Assembly: GCF_030382115.1 (NCBI RefSeq)
Contig: NZ_JAUDRJ010000003.1
Span: forward strand, 4,266,639-4,303,676
Direction of reading: 5' to 3'
Source of the DNA: Nostoc sp. GT001
GTDB taxonomy: Bacteria; Cyanobacteriota; Cyanobacteriia; Cyanobacteriales; Nostocaceae
Length of the DNA stretch: 37,038 nucleotides
How positions within the stretch are numbered: position 1 is the stretch's first letter; each line of letters starts with the position of its first letter. Positions 2,033 through 12,984 of the stretch are shown one piece after another. Under the pieces are notes generated by a model. The model made no database searches, was not told where the DNA came from, and saw nothing but the letters and a program-made list of their open reading frames with translations. The position numbers and the translations under genes were made by a program.

Positions 2033-2683
2033 ATGGTTCAATTCGATGAACAGCTACGCCGCTTAGTTATAGAAGCCTGTGGACACCAACCTGGAAGCCC
2101 TCAGCGTCAGAAGCTGCTCACGCAAATTATTCGCTTGACAGCAAGTAGACTCTGGAGGGAAACTACTCCCTACTATCAAGACGCACTACAACAAACTTGG
2201 TTGTATTTCTGTCGTAATGTTTGTGAAGGTTTGACAGGTCAAATCTACGATCCAAATTATGGCAGTGTGATCACCTGGCTGAATGCTTACCTAAAACGGA
2301 GACTACAAGACTTTTACCTTAAGCAGAACCGAGAACAAGCCACAACAGTCCCTTTGAGAATTCGTCAGTCTACATCTGGTGGAATAAGTGAAACCATCGA
2401 TCCTGTAGATAACCTACACGCTACCCCCCAAGCACCTCCAATTTTGGAAGAGTTGGAGATATGGGCGAAGACAGATTCGGATGGGGAACTGCGCGGTACT
2501 TACATTAAAGGGCGTCCAGATGTGAATTGTCAGGTGTTAATTATCAAACGCTTACCCCCAGAAGTTAGCTGGAAAGATTTATCTGAGGAATTTGGGTTGT
2601 CAATTCCGACATTAAGCAGTTTTTATCAACGCCAATGTTTACCGCGTTTGCGTAAGTTTGCAGAATTGGAGGGATTATTATGA
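2033..2683 (+). CDS. Divergent sigma-70-family (ECF-like) protein
   Basis: This 216-residue protein has two halves. Residues ~40-105 resemble sigma region 2 (YYQDALQQTWLYFCRNVCEG, then YDPNYGSVITWLNAYLKRRLQDF). Residues ~175-212 resemble region 4, a helix-turn-helix (VSWKDLSEEFGLSIPTLSSFYQRQCLPRLRKF). The linker of ~55 residues is Pro/Thr-rich. The layout fits cyanobacterial sigma-70-like proteins that are far from the housekeeping and classic ECF groups; whether it binds core polymerase is not shown by the sequence. It is the first of five same-strand genes leading to CHAT, DUF1822, CHASE2 and DUF928 proteins, and may control them. A palindrome lies upstream at 1944-1959. No anti-sigma gene adjoins it. 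Confidence 0.75.
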   Translation: MVQFDEQLRRLVIEACGHQPGSPQRQKLLTQIIRLTASRLWRETTPYYQDALQQTWLYFCRNVCEGLTGQIYDPNYGSVITWLNAYLKRRLQDFYLKQNREQATTVPLRIRQSTSGGISETIDPVDNLHATPQAPPILEELEIWAKTDSDGELRGTYIKGRPDVNCQVLIIKRLPPEVSWKDLSEEFGLSIPTLSSFYQRQCLPRLRKFAELEGLL

Positions 2684-3022
2684 TCGGTGCTGTTAACGAA
2701 TAGCTAGCCACGGTCGAGCCAGTGCTGAGTCAGAAGTAGTACTGATGAATCTTCCCGTTTTCAGCCGAGGTATTCATCCTCGGAATTGATTTCATGTCTA
2801 GACCTAGTTAATTTTACTTTTTACTCAGTACTGTTTCGGCGGGTTTTTGGTTAAGGTTAGCGATCGCCTTTTAACTATACTTTGCTAATCAAGTTTCACC
2901 GCGATCGCCATAAATCAGAAAATTGTGGAAGCTCAAAGATTGCTGAGGGATGGGAATGGTAACATTACCCTGTTAGCCTATAGTTCATCCTATGTGTTTC
3001 TGGTTATCACCTACCTCTCGTC
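2684..3022. other. Intergenic gap with a small hairpin and two HIP1 sites
   Basis: No gene is visible. A 6-bp GC hairpin (CCGAGG at 2765-2770, CCTCGG at 2778-2783) lacks a T-run. HIP1 octamers GCGATCGC occur at 2860-2867 and 2901-2908. The promoter of the TPR-CHAT gene probably lies here, but no clear -35/-10 pair was seen. Confidence 0.5.
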
Positions 3023-5776
3023 ATGCTTATGGCTAAAACAACTAGGATTTTTGGCGCAAATTCTCTAAAGTTTAAAAGCAGGAGTAGAGAAACGGCAAGG
3101 ACGCGCTGGCTCACTGCACTAGCTCACTGTTTACGTTTGCCTTTGTACTTTTTGATCGCTTTGCTATGCATTGTCGGTTCACCAGTGCTAGCAAAAGTTC
3201 CTAGCTCAATCAATTCTTTATCCCAACTGCCAATAAATAGTACAATATCGCTGGCTGTGCCCACTGATGCCGCTTCACTCCTACAGCAGGGCAAAGTTTT
3301 ATACAGGAATGGCAAATTTGCCAAAGCTGTAGAAGTATTACAACAGGCTGTCCAAATATATAAGCACACTTCGGCATTGCTCAGTGACCAGCAAGGGGAG
3401 AGCCTTGCACTAGCAGTGACACTGAGTAATCTTTCCCTAGCTTACCAGCAACTCGGTGCATGGAGTCAGGCGCAGCAGGCAATTACAGAAAGCTTAAATT
3501 TACTCCAAGGACAGGATAAAAACCAAAATCTGCAAATATTTGCCCAATCATTAGATATTCAAGGTCGTCTGCAATTGGCAATGGGACAGTCTGAGGCGGC
3601 TTTGGCAACTTGGCAGCAGACAGAAGAAATTTACAAACAAGCAGATAATCAAAGTGGCGTGGTGCGATCGCTAATCAATCAAGCACAAGCGTGGCGCACC
3701 CAAGGATTTTACCCGCGAGCGTTCAAAACACTCGATCGAATAAGTAAGACGTTAAAATCTCAACCAGATTCTAGAGAAAAAACAGTGAGTTTGCGATCGC
3801 TCGGTGATGCCCTTTTGGTATTGGGCGATTTGAAAAAGTCACGCAAAGCCTTAGAAGCAAGTCTGATAATTGCTCAAAATCTCCAATCAAGCGCTGATAT
3901 TGGGGCTAGTCTGTTCAGCTTGGGGAATAATGCCCGTAAACAAAACCAAAAGGAACAGGCGATCGCCTATTATCAACAAACAGTTGCAGTATCTCCCTCA
4001 CCCCTCACAAAAGTTCAAGCACAACTCAATCACCTGGGACTACTGATTAAAGATAAAGAATGGGCAAAGGTGCAAACTATTTTGCCGTCCATTGAGTCCC
4101 ACCTCAAGCAACTTCCCCTCAGCCGTGCGAGTATTTACGCTCACGTTAACTATTCACAAAGTTTAGCCAAAGTCAAGAGTGGTGTATTGCAAGCATCAAG
4201 TCAGAGTTCTTACTCAGGATTAAGTACAAAAGACTCAGCAAAATTACTCGCTAGTGCCATCCAGCAATCCCGCAGTTTAGAAGACAAACGGGCAGAGGCT
4301 TATGCTCTAAAGAGTTTAGGCGGCTTGTACGAAGAAACCAGACAGTGGGCAGAAGCGCAAGACCTGACCCGGCAAGGATTAGCTTTGGCACAGAGTAGCA
4401 ATGCCTCAGAAATTACCTATAGCTTGGAGTGGCAGTTAGGTAGATTGCTTTGGGCACAAAAAGATATTAATGGTGCGATCGCCGCTTATGATGCTGCTGT
4501 AGACACTCTTGAGTCTCTCCGCAAAGATTTAGTAGTCAATAAAGATGTCGTGAACCAAGATGTGCAATTTGACTTCCGGGACAGTGTAGAACCCGTTTAC
4601 CGCCAGTCAGTGGAGTTGCTACTGCAATCCCAAAAAGGAAAACCAAATGAAAAAATATTGGAGAAAGCACGCGAACGGATTGAAGCACTCCAACTAGCAG
4701 AATTAGACGACTTCTTTCAGGAAGCTTGTCTGCAAGGTCAGAAAGTAGCCCTCGATCGAGTAGTAGAGAAAGATAATTCCAAGGCTGCCATCCTTTATCC
4801 AATTATTCTTCGTGACGAACTCCAGGTAATTGTCAAAATTCCTACACAATCTTTGCAAAGCTACAGTACCAAGATTTCCCAAGCCGAAGTAGAGAACCTT
4901 TTAATAGAACTGCGAAGAAATCTTGTCAATCCAACTGCTACTAAGATCGTCCAAACCCAATCGCAAGAAGTTTACAACTGGCTACTTAAACCTATTGAGT
5001 CACAATTGCAACAAAGTGGCGTCGATACGTTAGTGTTCGTCCTAGATGGGCCATTACGCAATTTACCAATGGCAGCTCTCTACGATGGTAAACAATATTT
5101 AGTAGAGAAATATGCGATCGCTCTGAGTGTCGGTCTGCAACTCCTCGACCCAAAACCGCTGGTAAAACAGCAACTGAGAGCGCTAACCGCAGGACTGACT
5201 CAGCCACCGCCAGGATTTCCCAAGTTTGCACCATTGCTGGCGATCAAATCTGAATTTGACGGTATTGCGAAAGCTGGAGTTTCGACAACCAGCCTATTAG
5301 ATGGCGATTTTAAGAAAAAGAATTTGGAAAGTGAAATTGGTGCTACTTCATTCAACATAGTGCATTTGGCAACCCACGGTCAGTTTAGCTCCCGCCTTGA
5401 AGACACTTTTATTTTAGATTTCGATGGTCAGATCAATGTCAAAGATTTTGATACTCTCTTTCACAGTCAGGGTAAAACCATCGTAGAATTATTGGTTTTG
5501 AGTGCTTGCCAAACAGCAACAGGAGACAGCCGTGCAGCACTCGGTCTAGCAGGAGCAGCTGTCCGTGCTGGGGCACGTAGTACCATCGCTTCCCTGTGGC
5601 AAATTGATGATGAATCAACAGCGATGTTTGTTAGTGCCTTCTATCGAGAACTCAAGAGTGGCAAAATCACCAAAGCCGAAGCAGTCCATCGTGCCCAACT
5701 ACAACTGCTAAAACATCCCAACTACAGAGCGCCAAGCTTTTGGTCTGCCTATATATTGATTGGTAATTGGTTGTGA
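3023..5776 (+). CDS. Secreted TPR-CHAT caspase-like protease
   Basis: This 917-residue protein has a long basic N-region, a hydrophobic stretch at ~38-54 and a probable signal cleavage after VLA (57). TPR-type helical repeats run from ~85 to ~510 (e.g. LLQQGKVLYRNGKFAKAVEVL, ALVTLSNLSLAYQQLG pattern). The C-terminal CHAT domain (~620-917) carries the caspase-like dyad: His785 in HLATHGQF and Cys829 in LSACQTATGD, followed by GLAGAAVRAGARSTIASLW and FWSAYILIG. Both catalytic residues are present, so it should be an active cysteine peptidase; substrates are unknown. The export signal places it outside the plasma membrane. ATG at 3029 is an alternative start. It is second in the CHAT/CHASE2 cluster. 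Confidence 0.88.
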   Translation: MLMAKTTRIFGANSLKFKSRSRETARTRWLTALAHCLRLPLYFLIALLCIVGSPVLAKVPSSINSLSQLPINSTISLAVPTDAASLLQQGKVLYRNGKFAKAVEVLQQAVQIYKHTSALLSDQQGESLALAVTLSNLSLAYQQLGAWSQAQQAITESLNLLQGQDKNQNLQIFAQSLDIQGRLQLAMGQSEAALATWQQTEEIYKQADNQSGVVRSLINQAQAWRTQGFYPRAFKTLDRISKTLKSQPDSREKTVSLRSLGDALLVLGDLKKSRKALEASLIIAQNLQSSADIGASLFSLGNNARKQNQKEQAIAYYQQTVAVSPSPLTKVQAQLNHLGLLIKDKEWAKVQTILPSIESHLKQLPLSRASIYAHVNYSQSLAKVKSGVLQASSQSSYSGLSTKDSAKLLASAIQQSRSLEDKRAEAYALKSLGGLYEETRQWAEAQDLTRQGLALAQSSNASEITYSLEWQLGRLLWAQKDINGAIAAYDAAVDTLESLRKDLVVNKDVVNQDVQFDFRDSVEPVYRQSVELLLQSQKGKPNEKILEKARERIEALQLAELDDFFQEACLQGQKVALDRVVEKDNSKAAILYPIILRDELQVIVKIPTQSLQSYSTKISQAEVENLLIELRRNLVNPTATKIVQTQSQEVYNWLLKPIESQLQQSGVDTLVFVLDGPLRNLPMAALYDGKQYLVEKYAIALSVGLQLLDPKPLVKQQLRALTAGLTQPPPGFPKFAPLLAIKSEFDGIAKAGVSTTSLLDGDFKKKNLESEIGATSFNIVHLATHGQFSSRLEDTFILDFDGQINVKDFDTLFHSQGKTIVELLVLSACQTATGDSRAALGLAGAAVRAGARSTIASLWQIDDESTAMFVSAFYRELKSGKITKAEAVHRAQLQLLKHPNYRAPSFWSAYILIGNWL

Positions 5777-5962
5777 TTGAACGCTCAAATTGTCGGCTCA
5801 AAATTTGGCAACCTATCTGCTAGTTGATAAACCGCTTTTAGCAGTTTGAGGCTATCTTCATAGAAGTATAAATACTCAAAATCTCTATCTCCCAGATCAT
5901 TTCAATATACAATCTTTTAATTTTATGGGATATTTTTACCTAATCCCCAGTCCCCAATTCTC

Positions 5963-6001
5963 TTTTTCCAGTATTCAGTTTTTTTTCCAGTATTCAGTTT
6001 T
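5963..6001. repeat. 19-bp tandem duplication
   Basis: TTTTTCCAGTATTCAGT occurs twice with a 19-bp period in the gap before the DUF1822 gene. It is a local duplication in non-coding DNA, with nothing else recognisable around it. Confidence 0.6.
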
Positions 6002-6066
6002 GTGGCATAAATTTATTGAATGCGGGTGATATATACATAGCAGCATTGATCCCTAGAAATTGACTT

Positions 6067-7035
6067 ATGAATAACTCCACCTATCAGCTAGATGATGTCG
6101 CTTTAACATTGCCGATTTCCCAAACAGCCCGCATAACTGCCCAGCAATTTGCTAACCAGCAACCAAATCTTGAAAAAGCAGAGCAAGTCCGGCTGAATAC
6201 TTTAGCTGTATGGGTGGTGAATGACTACTTGCAAATGATGGATATTCCTACCGATCTTCAAGCTAGTGACAGTTGGAACCCCATCATGCGCCTTTGTGGG
6301 GATATCGCTGATTTAGAACTGCCCTCAATTGGCCGTCTGGAGTGTCGCCCTGTCCATCTGCATCAGCAAATATGTTTTATTCCTCCAGAAACTTGGGAAG
6401 AACGGGTGGGTTATTTAATAGTTCAATTTGATGAATCGCTCGAAGAAGCAAGGCTGCTTGGTTTTATCCCTACTGTAGCCACTGAAACAGTTCCTTTAGC
6501 GCAACTGCAACCATTGGAAGCGTTTATTGACCACATCTGGGAACTGCGCCAATCCCCACCTAATTCATTAGTGAATTTGAGTCAATGGTTTGCTGGTATC
6601 TTTGAAACTGGTTGGGAGACTATTGAATCGCTGTGGAACGTGCCAGAACTCATGCCAACTTATGCCTTTCGCAGTATTGAAACTTTGGAATTAGATACCC
6701 TCAAACAACCAGAATCAATTACTAAACGGGCAAAAGTGATTGATTTAGGTATCCAAATCCACAACCAACCTGTGATGTTGATTGTAGAAATCAGCCCCGA
6801 AAAAGATCAACAAACTAGTATTCATCTCCAATTGCACGCCACTGGAAATCAAATCTACTTGCCACCAGGAGTTCATCTCACTGTTATAGATAGTTCAGGA
6901 GCAATATTTCTAGATGCTCAATCGAGAAAATCAGACAACTATATTCAGTTGCAGTTTCGTGGTGAACCTACAGAGCAATTTAGTGTTAGGGTATCCTTGG
7001 ATAATACCAGTATTACCGAATATTTCCGAATTTGA
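6067..7035 (+). CDS. DUF1822 family protein
   Basis: This 322-residue protein lacks a signal peptide and should be cytoplasmic. The N-terminal half has LTLPISQTARITAQQFANQQ, VRLNTLAVWVVNDYLQMM and a following W near residue 74 (SWNP), the signature layout of DUF1822, a cyanobacterial family with no assigned function. The middle has FIPPETWEERVGYLIVQFDESLEEARLLGF, also typical. The C-terminal third (from ~222) forms a beta-rich segment (VIDLGIQIHNQPVMLIVEI; LPPGVHLTVIDSSG) seen in such proteins next to CHAT genes. DUF1822 genes commonly sit beside CHAT/CHASE2 genes, so a shared pathway is likely. The gap to the next start is 174 bp. Confidence 0.85.
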   Translation: MNNSTYQLDDVALTLPISQTARITAQQFANQQPNLEKAEQVRLNTLAVWVVNDYLQMMDIPTDLQASDSWNPIMRLCGDIADLELPSIGRLECRPVHLHQQICFIPPETWEERVGYLIVQFDESLEEARLLGFIPTVATETVPLAQLQPLEAFIDHIWELRQSPPNSLVNLSQWFAGIFETGWETIESLWNVPELMPTYAFRSIETLELDTLKQPESITKRAKVIDLGIQIHNQPVMLIVEISPEKDQQTSIHLQLHATGNQIYLPPGVHLTVIDSSGAIFLDAQSRKSDNYIQLQFRGEPTEQFSVRVSLDNTSITEYFRI

Positions 7036-7209
7036 AATATGTAGCTATCTTCCTTCTTTGTCGGTAATTTATTAAGTGATAATTCATTAATTGAAAATTA
7101 AAAATTAAAAATCCAAGCCAGTTTTTGGGGATTTTGAAAAAAATCTGTAGACGCTTGTGATCGGACATTAGAACAGGGCACGATCTTGCATGGGGAAATA
7201 GCGACGGTT

Positions 7210-9552
7210 ATGGGTAAATTAGTGGCGATCAAATTTGGAGAGGGTAGTTTTGAACAGGGGTTTGCTGTCACCCTCCAAATTGGTGAAGAACACGAGCGTG
7301 CTACAACCGAAATCACCGGGAGGCTCCCTTCATTCCCGGAAATGCCGCTCTATTATAGTCATTGGCAGTCTAGTTATCGGCAGATAGGCAATCGTTATCG
7401 CCTCCATGCTGACAAAATGCAGGTGACGAATGTATCGATGGTGCAAGACTGCGAAAACGCTTCTCATATTTTGCGGGCACGCTTTAATACCTGGCTGCGA
7501 GCAGAGGAGTTTCGCCCGTTGAGGGAAAAATGGTTAGAAAGATTATCGTCTAGCGACGAAGTACGGGTGATTCTGCAAACAGAAAATAGCCAATTGCAGT
7601 TATTACCTTGGCATCTTTGGGACTTGTTAGAACGCTATCCCAAAGCTGAAATTGCCCTTTCTTCACCATCTTACGATCGCACTCAAAAGCCACGCACTCT
7701 CAATCAATTAGTCAATATTTTGGCAATTGTGGGCAATAGTAAAGGGATTGACACCCAAGCCGATCGAGCTTTACTGCAACAGTGTAGTAACGCAGAAGTG
7801 AGCTTTTTGGTAGAACCACAACGTAAGGAATTGACTGACCATCTCTGGGGAAAAAACTGGGATATTCTCTTCTTTGCGGGACACAGTTCTAGCAACAAAA
7901 ATGGGGAAAGCGGACGAATTTACCTGAATAGAACTGATAGTCTTACCATTGGCGAGTTAAAGTACGCTCTCAAAAAAGCCATTGAAAACGGTTTGCAATT
8001 AGCTATATTCAACTCCTGTGATGGATTGGGGTTAGCGCGAGAATTGGCTGATTTGCAAATTCCTCAAATAATTGTCATGCGCGAACCCGTCCCAGACCAG
8101 GTTGCGAAGGAGTTTTTAAAATATTTTCTCCAAGGCTTTGCTGGTGGCGAGTCTTTATATCAAGCGGTACGCCAAGCGCGGGAACGCTTGCAAGGACTTG
8201 AAGATAGATTTCCTTGTGCGACTTGGCTACCAGTAATTTGCCAAAATCCGGCGCAGATACCACCGACTTGGGATGAATTAAGGTCTACAAAATCTAAAGA
8301 GGAAGAGCAAGCAAGTTTACCTTTGTCTAACAGACGCAAATTTAAGAGAACTGTATTATCCAGCTTGGCAATTACAGCTTTGGTTTTTGGCGCGAGATTG
8401 GTGGGATTGCTAGAAAATCAAGAGATTCAAGCCTTTGACCTGATGATGCGATCGCGCCCTGCCGAAGCTCTCGATCACCGACTGTTGATCATCACAATTG
8501 ACGATGACGATTTAGCCATTCAAAGACAAAATGGCGAGTACTTGATCGGAGCTTCTATTTCCGAAAAATCTCTCAATAAACTCTTAGCAAAACTGAATCA
8601 GTACCAACCCCGCGCGATCGGCTTGGATATCTACCGTGATTTTCAGGCCAAAGAGCCAGATTTAATTACTCGTCTCCAGCAAACTCATAACTTGGTTGGC
8701 GTATGCAAGGGGAGCGATCGCTCAGAAAATATCAAAGGCATTAAGCCGCCACCAGAAATCCCCCCAGGAAATCTGGGATTCAGTGACTTTATTCACGATC
8801 GCGATGGAGTTATTCGTCGGCATCTTCTGTTCATGAGTCAGGAGACGACATCATTGTGTTCTGCTGAATATTCCTTCAGTTTACAACTAGCATCCCTTTA
8901 TCTGCGCCCTTTAGGAATTCAAACAAAGTTCACCCCTGAAGGAAATTTGCAGTTGGGTAAGACTATTTTTCCAAATCTGAAGTCTCGTACTGGTGGCTAT
9001 CAGAAGATTGATGCGAATGGCGGTCAAATCTTACTCAACTATCGTTCTTCAAAAGAAATAGCCGAACAGGTAAAGCTAACGCAATTTTTATCTAGTCCAA
9101 TTAACCCCAACGCCATCAAAAACCGAATTGTTCTCATTGGTGTGACTGCAAAGGGCGATTCTCCAGACACCTGGCCTACACCTTATGGCATTCCTTTAGA
9201 TGAGCAAATGCCAGGAGTACTGGTACAAGCTCACATGGTCAGCCAGATCCTTGGTGCAGTCCAGGATGGGCGGCCTTTGCTGCGGGCTTGGTCATGGTGG
9301 GCGGAGGTCGCCTGGATTTGGGGCTGGTCTTTGATTGGGGGAGTCTTGGCTTGGCGCAGGCTTTCCTTACCCTGGTTGGCATTGTCAATCGGTGTTACTT
9401 CTAGCGTTTTGTATGTAGTTTGCTTTGGTCTGTTCATTTCGGGTGCTTGGGTGCCTTTCGTACCCTCGGCTTTATCGTTGGTAGCTATGGGGGTTTTGAT
9501 GTCAATTTATAATAATTCAAAAACAAAAGCGCGGGCGGGAAATGGGGAATAG
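7210..9552 (+). CDS. CHAT-CHASE2 membrane protein
   Basis: The start chosen is ATG 7210 (780 residues), because MGKLVAIKFGEGSFEQGF matches the usual beginning of this family; a TTG at 7186 would add eight unlike residues. The N-terminal half is a CHAT-type caspase-like domain with His225 (LFFAGHSSS) and Cys270 (FNSCDGLGLA), then FAGGESLYQAVRQARERL and CATWLPVICQNP. One membrane span (~381-401) leads into an extracytoplasmic CHASE2 sensor domain (LLIITIDDDDLAIQ, RAIGLDIYRDF, GVIRRHLLF, IVLIGVTAKGDSPD). Hydrophobic spans fill residues ~690-775. Topology therefore puts the protease-like domain inside and the sensor outside. CHASE2 usually feeds kinases, cyclases or adenylate-type outputs; here the linked module is CHAT. 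Confidence 0.88.
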   Translation: MGKLVAIKFGEGSFEQGFAVTLQIGEEHERATTEITGRLPSFPEMPLYYSHWQSSYRQIGNRYRLHADKMQVTNVSMVQDCENASHILRARFNTWLRAEEFRPLREKWLERLSSSDEVRVILQTENSQLQLLPWHLWDLLERYPKAEIALSSPSYDRTQKPRTLNQLVNILAIVGNSKGIDTQADRALLQQCSNAEVSFLVEPQRKELTDHLWGKNWDILFFAGHSSSNKNGESGRIYLNRTDSLTIGELKYALKKAIENGLQLAIFNSCDGLGLARELADLQIPQIIVMREPVPDQVAKEFLKYFLQGFAGGESLYQAVRQARERLQGLEDRFPCATWLPVICQNPAQIPPTWDELRSTKSKEEEQASLPLSNRRKFKRTVLSSLAITALVFGARLVGLLENQEIQAFDLMMRSRPAEALDHRLLIITIDDDDLAIQRQNGEYLIGASISEKSLNKLLAKLNQYQPRAIGLDIYRDFQAKEPDLITRLQQTHNLVGVCKGSDRSENIKGIKPPPEIPPGNLGFSDFIHDRDGVIRRHLLFMSQETTSLCSAEYSFSLQLASLYLRPLGIQTKFTPEGNLQLGKTIFPNLKSRTGGYQKIDANGGQILLNYRSSKEIAEQVKLTQFLSSPINPNAIKNRIVLIGVTAKGDSPDTWPTPYGIPLDEQMPGVLVQAHMVSQILGAVQDGRPLLRAWSWWAEVAWIWGWSLIGGVLAWRRLSLPWLALSIGVTSSVLYVVCFGLFISGAWVPFVPSALSLVAMGVLMSIYNNSKTKARAGNGE

Positions 9553-9566
9553 GAGCAGGGGCAGGG

Positions 9567-9734
9567 GAGCATACTTCGACTACGCTCAGTAACCGAGGGA
9601 GCAAGGGAGCATACTTCGACTACGCTCAGTAACCGAGGGAGCATACTTCGACTACGCTCAGTAACCGAGGGAGCATACTTCGACTACGCTCAGTAACCGA
9701 GGGAGCATACTTCGACTACGCTCAGTAACCGAGG
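9567..9734. repeat. Five copies of a 32-bp direct repeat
   Basis: Units start at 9567, 9607, 9639, 9671 and 9703; units 2-5 are contiguous, and 8 bp separates units 1 and 2. Each unit contains CATACTTCGACTACGCTCAG. They are embedded in a purine-rich arm (GGGGAGC-type, 9545-9760) followed by a pyrimidine-rich arm (9768-9795), the same design as at 29742-29876. The array fills most of the 301-bp gap before the DUF928 gene. Confidence 0.9.
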
Positions 9735-9803
9735 GAGCAGGGGAGCAGAGGAGAAGTAGCAGTAAGTCTTTCGCCTCTGTCCCTCTGCCTCTTTTAAATG
9801 CCC

Positions 9804-9835
9804 AATCTAAAATCTAAAATCTAAAATCTAAAATC
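9804..9835. repeat. Heptanucleotide tandem repeat (STRR type)
   Basis: AATCTAA is repeated four times exactly (9804-9831) and followed by AATC. Short tandemly repeated heptamers are a known feature of filamentous cyanobacterial genomes. The array ends 18 bp before the DUF928 start codon, where it could affect the leader. Confidence 0.8.
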
Positions 9836-9853
9836 CTATGAGGTCAGGTTTCT

Positions 9854-10654
9854 ATGAATTCAAATTCACAACCGATAAAACTGTTTTTAGTAGTAGCTTT
9901 TAGCTGTACAAATTTATCAGTTAGTCTGACTCCAGTACTGGCGAAACCAACCCCTAATCGCTCTGATACTAAAACGATCCTTGCTCAAGCGAAAACCTTT
10001 AATCAACCTCCAATTCCAGCTGGCTCCCCTCCTGGAGGTCGCGTTCGTGGTGGAGCGAAGCGTGGGGAAACTGGATGTCCTACAACTAAAATTGACTTGA
10101 CTGCTTTAGTACCCTTTACTGAGGAAGCTAACTCAGTGATTAATGTCTGGGGACAAACAACTGTAGAACATCCAAGTTGGTTTTTCTATGTGCCATATAC
10201 CAAAGATTCGCCATATACAGTTGAATTTGTACTGCAAGATCCAGACGCTAACGAGGTATACAAAAAAGCGATCGCTTTATCGGATAAGCCAGGAGTAATC
10301 CGCGTTTCTTTGCCTAGCAATGCTCCCGCTTTAGCAGTAGACACACAATACCGTTGGTTTTTCACAATTAACTGTGACAAGCAAAAGAACTCGCCCCCAA
10401 CTTTTGTTGAAGGGGTAATCAAACGAGTTAACCTGAGTCAACCAACAGTCAAAGAAATAGAAACAGCAGAACCTATAAAGCGCTATGCTATCTATGCCCA
10501 AAATGGGATATGGTACGAGGCACTGACGACGTTGGCTGAACTGCGTCAACAAAATCCTCAAGATGCAGCCCTGAAAGCAGAGTGGCGAAATTTGTTAGGC
10601 AGCATCCGCTTAGATGATGTTGCCGGAGAACCGATTCTTCCAGGAACACCTTAA
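9854..10654 (+). CDS. Secreted DUF928 protein
   Basis: This 266-residue protein has a signal peptide (hydrophobic ~9-28, cleavage after VLA at 30). A low-complexity Gly/Arg segment precedes GCPTTKIDLTALVPF. The folded domain has HPSWFFYVPYTKDSPYTVEFVLQD and YRWFFTINCDKQ, which I recognise as DUF928, a periplasmic cyanobacterial family of unknown function often found next to CHAT and CHASE2 genes. Two Cys residues (in GCPTT and INCDK) may form a disulfide. The C-terminal ~70 residues are helical (AIYAQNGIWYEALTTLAELRQQNP). The stop codon TAA at 10652-10654 overlaps the target-site duplication of a MITE, so the insertion stopped just short of damaging the gene. Confidence 0.82.
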   Translation: MNSNSQPIKLFLVVAFSCTNLSVSLTPVLAKPTPNRSDTKTILAQAKTFNQPPIPAGSPPGGRVRGGAKRGETGCPTTKIDLTALVPFTEEANSVINVWGQTTVEHPSWFFYVPYTKDSPYTVEFVLQDPDANEVYKKAIALSDKPGVIRVSLPSNAPALAVDTQYRWFFTINCDKQKNSPPTFVEGVIKRVNLSQPTVKEIETAEPIKRYAIYAQNGIWYEALTTLAELRQQNPQDAALKAEWRNLLGSIRLDDVAGEPILPGTP

Positions 10655-10878: not shown

Positions 10879-12984
10879 TTAGTTTGCAGCTGCACTTACT
10901 AAACCATTGTGCCTGAGCAAAGCGATCGTACTTGGCTCACGACCCCGGAAAGTTTTAAACACCTCCATTGGATGCTTGCTACCACCGAGTGCTAGCACCG
11001 TATCCCGATACCGCCGACCTGTAGTTTTTATAGCTTCTTCATTTTCTAGCCCAGCTTCTTCAAAAGCGGCAAAAGCGTCAGCACTAAGGACTTCAGCCCA
11101 TTTGTAACTGTAGTAACCTGCTGCATAACCACCCTCAAAAATGTGCCCAAAAGAACACAACATTGAATCTTCTGGAAGTGGTGGTAAAACAGTAGTAGTC
11201 TTAGCTATGCGATGACGCACATCTGCTGGAGTTTCATTGCTGCCAGAACGATAGCGGTAGTGTAGTTCTAAATCAATACTGCTAAGGTGAATTTGCCGTA
11301 ACATACCAGTACCACTCATATAATTACGCGCCGCTAGCAGCTTTTGATAATAATGCTCTGGTAGGGCTTCTCCAGTTTCGTAATGTTTAGCCATGCCAAA
11401 CAAAGTGGGTCGTTCATAACACCAGTTTTCCATAAACTGACTGGGTAGTTCCACTGCATCCCATTCCACATTATTGATGCCTGCGGCTCCAGCATAGTCA
11501 ACCTTGGTGAGCATGTGATGCAATCCATGACCAAACTCGTGGAACAAAGTCTCTACTTCATAGAAAGTCATCAAACTCGGCTTGCCATCTACTGGGGGAG
11601 TTTGGTTACATATCAAATAAGCCACAGGCAACCGGATGGCAGTTGCACCATTTTCAGTTTTGGCACGATTAATGCATACATCCATCCAAGCACCGCCGCG
11701 TTTTTCTGCTGGACGGCTATAGGGGTCTAAGTAGAAGTAAGCGATGGGAGAACCAGTTTCATCGGCTATTTGGAAATAACGGACATCCTCATGCCATACT
11801 GGAGCTTTACCATCGGCAGGGGTTACTGTAACACCAAACAGCCGCTTAACAAGCCCAAACAAGCCATCTAGCACTTGGGGAAGGGGAAAGTAGGGACGTA
11901 ATTCTTCAGCGGTAAAGGCAAATTTTGCTTCTCGTTGGCGTTCTGCCCAAAAGCTGATGTCCCAATGTTTTAAATCTTGATATTCTTCTCCATAAGATGC
12001 AGCAAAAGCTTGGAGTTCTTTTAAGTCTTTGACAGCAGCATCATAACTGGCCTGGCGTAGTTCTTCTAATAGTGCTTCGACTGCCTCAACATTAGGAGCC
12101 ATTTTACTTGCAAGGCTCAACTCGGCAAAACTCTTAAAGCCAAGTATATCTGCGAGTTCTTGCCGTAACTCCAAAATACGCACAATTAACGGATTATTAT
12201 CTAAATCGCCACTAGAAGCGCGAGTAATATGAGCTTTGTAGAGCTTTTCACGCAAATCTCGACGGGTGCTGTGCTGTATGAAAGGGCCGTAACTGGGGAA
12301 GTCTAAAGTGATGCGCCAAGGGCCATTTTCTGGTGTGGCGTTCTCTTCTTTTGCGGCTCGTGCAGCTTGGGCAGCTAAACTCACTAAACTTGGTGGTAAA
12401 CCGTCAATTTCTGCTTTTGTTGTCAGGGTTAAGCTAAAGGCTTTCGTGGCATCAAGTACATGGTTAGAGAATTTAGTAGAAAGTTCTGCCAACTCCATCT
12501 GAATGGCGTTGAAACGGTCTCTTGCCTCTCCTTTTAAGCCAACACCAGAAAGTTCTGCATCTCGAATGGCGGCTTCTACAATGCGCTGTTGCGCTAATTC
12601 TAAAGTTGCCCAACTATCACTGCTACGGAGTGCCTTAAAAGCATTGTAGATGGGTTGGCTTTGACCGAGTTTGTTGATAAATTGTACAACTAGTGGCTGT
12701 ACGATTTCATGAGCTTCGCGCAGTTCCGGGCTATTTTTAACACCCATTAAATGATTTACCGTCCCCCAACTCCAGGTAAGCCGTTCTGTCAGCTTTTCTA
12801 AGGGTTCTACTAAACCACTCCAAGTGGGCTGTACACTAGCCTCTAAGCTGGCAAGTTGGTGGTCAAGTTCTGCTAGCAACTGATTGAAGGCTGGTACTAC
12901 TCGTTCTGGTTTAATCTCTGTAAAGGGAGGTAAACCATTGCCTTGGAGTAAGGGATTATCGGAAATAATGGTACTTGCACTCAT
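10879..12984 (-). CDS. prlC: M3-family oligopeptidase A (thimet-type zinc peptidase)
   Basis: This 701-residue protein is of typical oligopeptidase A length. The zinc motif is H482-E483-F-G-H486 within LFHEFGHGLHHM, and the third ligand should be the Glu in the downstream NVEWDAVELPSQFMENW segment. Other family marks are YFYLDPYSRPAEKRGGAWM, GHIFEGGYAAGYYSYKWAEVLSADAF and a C-terminal ALGGSKHPMEVFKTFRGREP. It lacks a signal peptide, so it is cytosolic and should degrade short peptides, including cleaved signal peptides. It stands alone on the minus strand, convergent with the DUF928 gene, with a hairpin between. The ATG at 12984 is well placed before NPLLQGNGLPPF, the conserved N-terminus. 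Confidence 0.93.
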   Translation of the reverse strand: MSASTIISDNPLLQGNGLPPFTEIKPERVVPAFNQLLAELDHQLASLEASVQPTWSGLVEPLEKLTERLTWSWGTVNHLMGVKNSPELREAHEIVQPLVVQFINKLGQSQPIYNAFKALRSSDSWATLELAQQRIVEAAIRDAELSGVGLKGEARDRFNAIQMELAELSTKFSNHVLDATKAFSLTLTTKAEIDGLPPSLVSLAAQAARAAKEENATPENGPWRITLDFPSYGPFIQHSTRRDLREKLYKAHITRASSGDLDNNPLIVRILELRQELADILGFKSFAELSLASKMAPNVEAVEALLEELRQASYDAAVKDLKELQAFAASYGEEYQDLKHWDISFWAERQREAKFAFTAEELRPYFPLPQVLDGLFGLVKRLFGVTVTPADGKAPVWHEDVRYFQIADETGSPIAYFYLDPYSRPAEKRGGAWMDVCINRAKTENGATAIRLPVAYLICNQTPPVDGKPSLMTFYEVETLFHEFGHGLHHMLTKVDYAGAAGINNVEWDAVELPSQFMENWCYERPTLFGMAKHYETGEALPEHYYQKLLAARNYMSGTGMLRQIHLSSIDLELHYRYRSGSNETPADVRHRIAKTTTVLPPLPEDSMLCSFGHIFEGGYAAGYYSYKWAEVLSADAFAAFEEAGLENEEAIKTTGRRYRDTVLALGGSKHPMEVFKTFRGREPSTIALLRHNGLVSAAAN

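Follow-up and report, generated by a model that had tools for sequence, protein, structure and literature searches.

The five-gene set at 2033..10654 in Nostoc sp. GT001 is real, and it is best explained as a CHASE2-type member of the EACC2/ECF sigma/DUF1822 systems, in which a membrane sensor-protease would relieve the hold of a DUF1822 protein on an ECF sigma factor (probability about 0.5). The core of such a system, that is, an ECF sigma factor, DUF1822 and a caspase-like protease with a variable sensor, is already published; the original prediction that no such pathway had been described fails for this core, since sigma, DUF1822 and a caspase-like protease with a CHASE2 tail are found together in the text of PMC8195603. 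What is new relative to the published core is that sigma and DUF1822 form its constant pair, and that it is linked to DUF928 and to cell-surface secretion genes; the probable wiring among its members is new as well.

In the window, that is, the whole stretch of 37,038 nucleotides that was analysed, five adjacent open reading frames on the plus strand were confirmed from the ORF list and Pfam (Table 1), with intergenic gaps of 174-339 nt, and their positions and domains agree with the original prediction. The topology given there (cytosolic CHAT, periplasmic CHASE2, secreted DUF928 and exported TPR-CHAT) fits the hydrophobicity of the products. The His/Cys dyad that it had pointed out in both CHAT proteins is kept without exception in the homologues that align at these positions, and the gene-neighbourhood survey across cyanobacteria that it had suggested gave strong co-occurrence, so the neighbourhood is not random. 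Taken as a whole, its interpretation is partly supported. Outside the five genes, a small lipoprotein-like gene with no confident family match lies just 5′ of sigma (1468-1896), and an M3 peptidase gene (10879-12984) is convergent with DUF928; judged by length only, an ORF of 700-703 aa recurs at the position of the M3 peptidase in several Nostoc loci.

Table 1. Features of the five-gene locus, in window coordinates.
Feature	Position	Strand	Basis or remark
Short ECF-type sigma factor, 216 aa	2033..2683	+	region 2 ~1-105, region 4 ~136-212
TPR-CHAT protein, 917 aa	3023..5776	+	hydrophobic export segment 39-57; C-terminal CHAT protease domain
TPR-CHAT catalytic His785 codon	5375..5377	+	H in 58/58 aligned homologues
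TPR-CHAT catalytic Cys829 codon	5507..5509	+	C in 58/58 aligned homologues
Non-coding block 5′ of DUF1822 resembling sigma 3′ end	6000..6051	+	conserved in Nostocales
DUF1822 protein, 322 aa, candidate sigma inhibitor	6067..7035	+	Pfam and predicted model
CHAT-CHASE2 sensor-protease, 780 aa from invariant Met	7210..9552	+	ORF opens with TTG at 7186
CHAT domain of sensor-protease	7582..8205	+	Pfam match
Catalytic His codon H225 (numbered from nt 7210)	7882..7884	+	alignment
Catalytic Cys codon C270 (numbered from nt 7210)	8017..8019	+	alignment
CHASE2 sensor domain	8374..9342	+	Pfam match; hydrophobic segments before it and at its C-terminal side
DUF928 protein, 266 aa, candidate CHASE2 partner	9854..10654	+	N-terminal signal-like segment

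The first gene is a divergent ECF sigma factor, which would direct transcription from its own promoter class; residues 102-135 form a low-confidence linker joining regions 2 and 4, and other domains are absent. A same-strand sigma gene lies directly 5′ of DUF1822 in 90/104 cases, with a median gap of 15 nt over the 90 pairs, namely in 54/62 of set A (62 DUF1822 genes, 60 neighbourhoods) and in 36/42 of set B (42 genes, 40 neighbourhoods), the latter having been collected once the rules were known from A, and from genomes partly shared with A; the split genes of locus L196 were counted as two DUF1822 rows. When sigma alone was searched for in 60 genomes, 35 of the 40 homologues had a same-strand DUF1822 within 3 kb downstream, and the window sigma is the 36th case, with DUF1822 at 3.4 kb. 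That is to say, DUF1822 is encoded with its cognate sigma, as is expected of an anti-sigma factor. By profile score, the DUF1822 proteins of set A are of a short type (median 324 aa) or a long type (median 394 aa), and the sigmas match them: 27 short-short and 27 long-long pairs with no mismatch in set A, 27 short-short and 7 long-long with two mismatches in set B (L204 and L208, with DUF1822 of 460 and 426 aa and sigmas of 246 and 221 aa). In loci L101, L103, L107, L111, L114, L186 and L218, a single sigma paralogue of 242 aa is flanked by two DUF1822/CHAT-CHASE2/DUF928 blocks set back to back.

The gene order was also compared in 80 named Nostocales loci, where some stretches end at contig edges. 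CHAT-CHASE2 comes next after DUF1822 in 77/80 loci, DUF928 comes next after CHAT-CHASE2 in 70/70 loci with room for it, and TPR-CHAT is directly 5′ of DUF1822 in 29/80; one or two genes 5′ of DUF1822, sigma on the same strand is present in 10/80 loci, and any sigma within the stretch in 20/80, both being counts in which some stretches are limited by the edges. Sigma is kept in all 23 genomes of the genus, the source included, with an identity of at least 88%; in the 22 of them that have a DUF1822 orthologue by score and length, it is near sigma in 6 and non-adjacent in the assembly in 16, and on three chromosome-size contigs (G115, G120 and G123) the two genes are 0.8 to 2.9 Mb apart. Likeness of sequence suggests, and only suggests, that the block at 6000-6051 could be what is left of an ancestral junction between sigma and DUF1822, possibly retained as a promoter. 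Compared with the sigma 3′ ends of loci in which sigma directly precedes DUF1822, its consensus scores 38 (highest score among 1000 dinucleotide shuffles, 34) and the window copy alone 31 (shuffle maximum 29), and 361 other sigma-gene pieces score 22 or less, but unrelated 70-nt pieces of the window score 32-37 against the same sigma set, which weakens the likeness. In the Fischerella-type loci L142, L148 and L152, stops were seen by eye in the sigma frame of the block, so it may be retained as a promoter. The order sigma-DUF1822-CHAT-CHASE2-DUF928 is likewise suggested to be ancestral, with the intervening TPR-CHAT derived.

The DUF1822 protein of the window shares 96% identity with one from Nostoc cf. 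edaphicum. Its predicted model (mean pLDDT 83, pTM 0.55) consists of an alpha/beta N-terminal domain, a linker at about 195-215 with pLDDT below 50, and an Ig-like beta-sandwich at 217-322. An N-terminal hydrophobic segment occurs in 2/163 DUF1822 proteins, and DUF1822 looks soluble; the modelled build is what one would expect of a soluble partner of sigma that could be cut at an exposed linker. No conserved motif was found in the linker, which is no objection to cleavage, because the cut site of Csx30 is not conserved between orthologues either (PMC11106740). The DUF1822 profile gave no sequence match in the PDB, to Csx30 or otherwise. The fold search, covering mainly the Ig-like domain, gave no Csx30 match either; RsgI4, an anti-sigma factor, was matched at its sensor domain, but only through an undistinctive Ig-like fold. 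As for the cleavage target, for which DUF1822 or sigma had been proposed, DUF1822 is most likely what the CHAT protease would cut, and sigma is more likely to be the output than a target; no report of cleavage of these proteins was found in the literature searched. In small genomes of the same phylum (L018-L030), proteins some 850-1300 aa long have matches like the DUF1822 N-terminal domain; a long acidic stretch comes after this domain in L018, where the 3.5 kb examined show no sigma gene.

In the sensor-protease, all of the 36 aligned sequences have Met9 (7210), and a start at this residue gives the H225/C270 numbering of the original prediction. About 130 residues precede the CHAT domain and are conserved in 36 sequences; they stand where the published system has its alpha+beta EACC2 domain and are a candidate for it. 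Among 122 CHAT sensor-proteases, the dyad is His in 120/120 and Cys in 121/121, the rest being gapped. Such a protein is next after DUF1822 in 69/104 cases (A 37/62; B 32/42); the sigma-DUF1822 pair thus also occurs with none adjacent, in 25/62 of set A, of which 22 are of the long type and 6 have TPR-CHAT within five genes. The fused sensor domains vary (CHASE2, Peripla_BP_6, PBP_like_2, nSTAND1-WD40, or pentapeptide in front of CHAT), and in two loci, each a single case, another protease stands in the place of CHAT: a double trypsin 122 nt 3′ of DUF1822 in L050, and an M48 peptidase 412 nt 3′ of it in L080.

DUF928 is probably secreted, and it follows the CHASE2 version of the sensor-protease. 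It is the next gene in 36/39 CHASE2 copies vs 0/30 copies with other fused domains (A 21/23 vs 0/14; B 15/16 vs 0/16), with a P of 1.7e-16 that, like the P values of all the counts around CHASE2, overstates independence since the loci are related. In L090 a weak Pfam CHASE2 without DUF928 was missed by the survey model, and counting it as CHASE2 gives 36/40 vs 0/29. Where no CHAT sensor-protease is adjacent, DUF928 is the next gene in 1/35 copies. In nine genomes, among the matches listed, DUF928 is within 3 kb of CHASE2 in at least 19/43 cases vs 0.3 expected, and 14 of those at least 19 pairs stand outside DUF1822 loci. Around the CHASE2 copies, secretion genes are gathered as well: TPS or ShlB genes lie within six genes of 18/39 CHASE2 copies vs 2/30 others (21/39 CHASE2 copies having none in that range), and TPR-CHAT within six genes of 24/39 vs 2/30. 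TPR-CHAT has an export-like N-terminal segment in 58/63 proteins longer than 800 aa, often adjoins ShlB or TPS genes, and may be tied to secretion and not to the switch; a natural fusion of 1489 aa joins a TPS secretion domain to a CHAT protease domain (L069:13652-18121), and in L211 sigma, DUF1822, CHAT-CHASE2, DUF928, TPS, ShlB and TPR-CHAT form a same-strand run of seven genes. At the window locus, no TPS or ShlB gene is found among the 18 proteins scanned. In L044 (10067-12288), a Bpu10I-type restriction endonuclease and a C5 methylase are inserted between TPR-CHAT and DUF1822.

Distance correlations suggest a DUF928-CHASE2 pair and a sigma-DUF1822-CHAT chain. In 42 non-redundant triads, the partial correlation is 0.40 (0.26 to 0.55) for sigma-DUF1822, 0.54 (0.31 to 0.71) for DUF1822-CHAT and 0.15 (-0.09 to 0.38; permutation 0.05) for sigma-CHAT, the last being not clearly zero; in a first run of 46 triads the values were 0.56, 0.43 and 0.13, respectively. 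CHASE2-DUF928 is the other strong pair, with 0.64 in 25 sets and 0.50 in 58 sets, the excess of its raw correlation over CHASE2-CHAT not being significant, and the partial value of 0.36 for DUF1822-CHASE2 is unexplained by a simple chain.

To the observed identity of sigma, the conserved dyads and the gene pairings, the proposed switch would add inhibition, cleavage, a direction of the signal and an output. DUF1822 would bind the ECF sigma factor in the cytosol and keep it inactive, while the membrane protein would carry CHASE2 outside and the caspase-like CHAT protease inside. The state of the envelope or surface would be sensed by CHASE2, probably with secreted DUF928 as its partner, and the protease would thereby be switched on; it would then cut DUF1822, most likely at the flexible linker, and the freed sigma would activate a regulon that probably includes surface proteins, with TPR-CHAT as an exported CHAT protein of the surface arm. 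The logic of this switch is that of the CHAT/Csx30/sigma precedent in type III-E CRISPR, but it would work without CRISPR. The exchange of sensors and proteases around the sigma-DUF1822 pair speaks for sigma release, and the missing Csx30 match of DUF1822 and the frequent separation of sigma in close relatives speak against it. A wider claim is tentative and falls short of an even chance: CHAT-gated sigma release would be general, type III-E being its RNA-triggered case, with the DUF928-partnered CHASE2 protease of cyanobacteria cutting DUF1822 to control a TPS surface arm to which the exported CHAT belongs, and with the sensor and even the class of protease exchangeable around the sigma-DUF1822 pair.

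The published view of this architecture is a conflict system that counters invaders or resembles cell death, whose caspase module is prompted by the sensor tail to cleave itself; on this view sigma lies downstream as a transcription step, and DUF1822, termed a TPR protein, is an adaptor and not a substrate (Kaur et al.; PMC8195603). The conserved caspase-like dyad, the presence of several copies in a genome, with differing fused domains, and weak matches of TPR-CHAT to the PADLOC models for TPR and BovA all agree with it. Nevertheless, it is considered unlikely here: the DUF1822 fold is predicted as alpha/beta plus an Ig-like sandwich, not TPR; sigma, DUF1822, CHAT-CHASE2 and DUF928 have no PADLOC match at E 0.1; and among the families counted around the CHASE2 copies, two-partner-secretion genes lie within six genes of 18/39. 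The sign of the DUF1822 effect could also be reversed, that is, DUF1822 would be a chaperone or co-activator of sigma, and the protease would turn the response off by destroying DUF1822 or sigma. The constant pairing and the co-variation of sigma and DUF1822 fit either sign. Most known dedicated partners of ECF sigma factors are inhibitors, which counts against a positive partner. Csx30, the closest working precedent, is an inhibitor too (PMC10028731), and a positive role is improbable.

The original prediction had instead placed all five products in one linear envelope pathway, with TPR-CHAT and DUF928 acting in the periplasm, here taken to be on a shared substrate. The enrichment of TPR-CHAT around CHASE2 copies, its export-like segment and its kept dyad fit such a cascade, but 15/39 CHASE2 copies have no TPR-CHAT within six genes, its place directly 5′ of DUF1822 is held in the minority of Nostocales loci counted above, and it often stands beside ShlB/TPS genes or, in L069, is fused to a TPS domain; TPR-CHAT is no constant member of the core, which makes the single cascade rather improbable. 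That five unrelated genes are neighbours by chance could be read from the window gaps and from the separability of sigma and the DUF1822 block in Nostoc, but cross-genus co-occurrence is far above chance, and this explanation hardly deserves any credence. The sigma-release switch gives function hypotheses for two uncharacterised cyanobacterial families, DUF1822 (sigma inhibitor) and DUF928 (outer partner of CHASE2), as well as a testable route from envelope to transcription via a caspase-like protease; and if DUF1822 is the substrate, the type III-E set of CHAT, inhibitor and sigma would be no peculiarity of CRISPR but an instance of a broader class of signalling.

Among known systems, the EACC2 system is shared in its main parts: a caspase-like domain with the His/Cys dyad in the constant part, a highly variable C-terminal sensor/effector tail, and neighbouring ECF sigma and DUF1822 genes. 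Kaur et al. 2021 described an EACC2-caspase module that stays constant while its tail varies, CHASE2 being one such tail, beside these two genes, and proposed that stimuli activate the autopeptidase, with sigma as a possible ultimate step; in the main text of that paper the whole words DUF928, two-partner, hemagglutinin and CHAT are absent, and its description of DUF1822 as a TPR protein disagrees with the model predicted here (PMC8195603). In type III-E Craspase/CASP, Csx29 (TPR-CHAT) is described as cleaving Csx30, a binder and inhibitor of an ECF sigma factor (PMC10028731, PMC9729208). A CHAT protease, a candidate sigma inhibitor and an ECF sigma are encoded together in both, but the trigger there is RNA via Cas7-11, whereas here a membrane CHASE2 protein takes its place; no Cas family, Cas7-11/gRAMP included, appears in the Pfam matches of the 18 window proteins. 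Another related cluster carries the code 'NOSP7', which we take to be Nostoc punctiforme. Its CHASE2, DUF928 and WD40 genes were read as a response to extracellular signals, and as here the CHASE2 gene adjoins the DUF928 gene, sigma, DUF1822 and CHAT not being named in that passage (PMC5587647). The HetF model (NF045509) aligns to the CHAT part here at 1.9e-7, but 29.8 bits against its cut-off of 1200 reject an identity with HetF. HetF is a CHAT-domain cell-division protein of cyanobacteria. In regulated anti-sigma proteolysis of the RseA/DegS and RsiW type, an envelope signal acts through a protease to release an ECF sigma, and the anti-sigma factor is itself a membrane protein. Proteolysis of this type, also named in PMC10028731, shares with the proposed switch the course from envelope signal through protease to sigma release, whereas here a single membrane protein holds both sensor and protease, and DUF1822 seems to be soluble.
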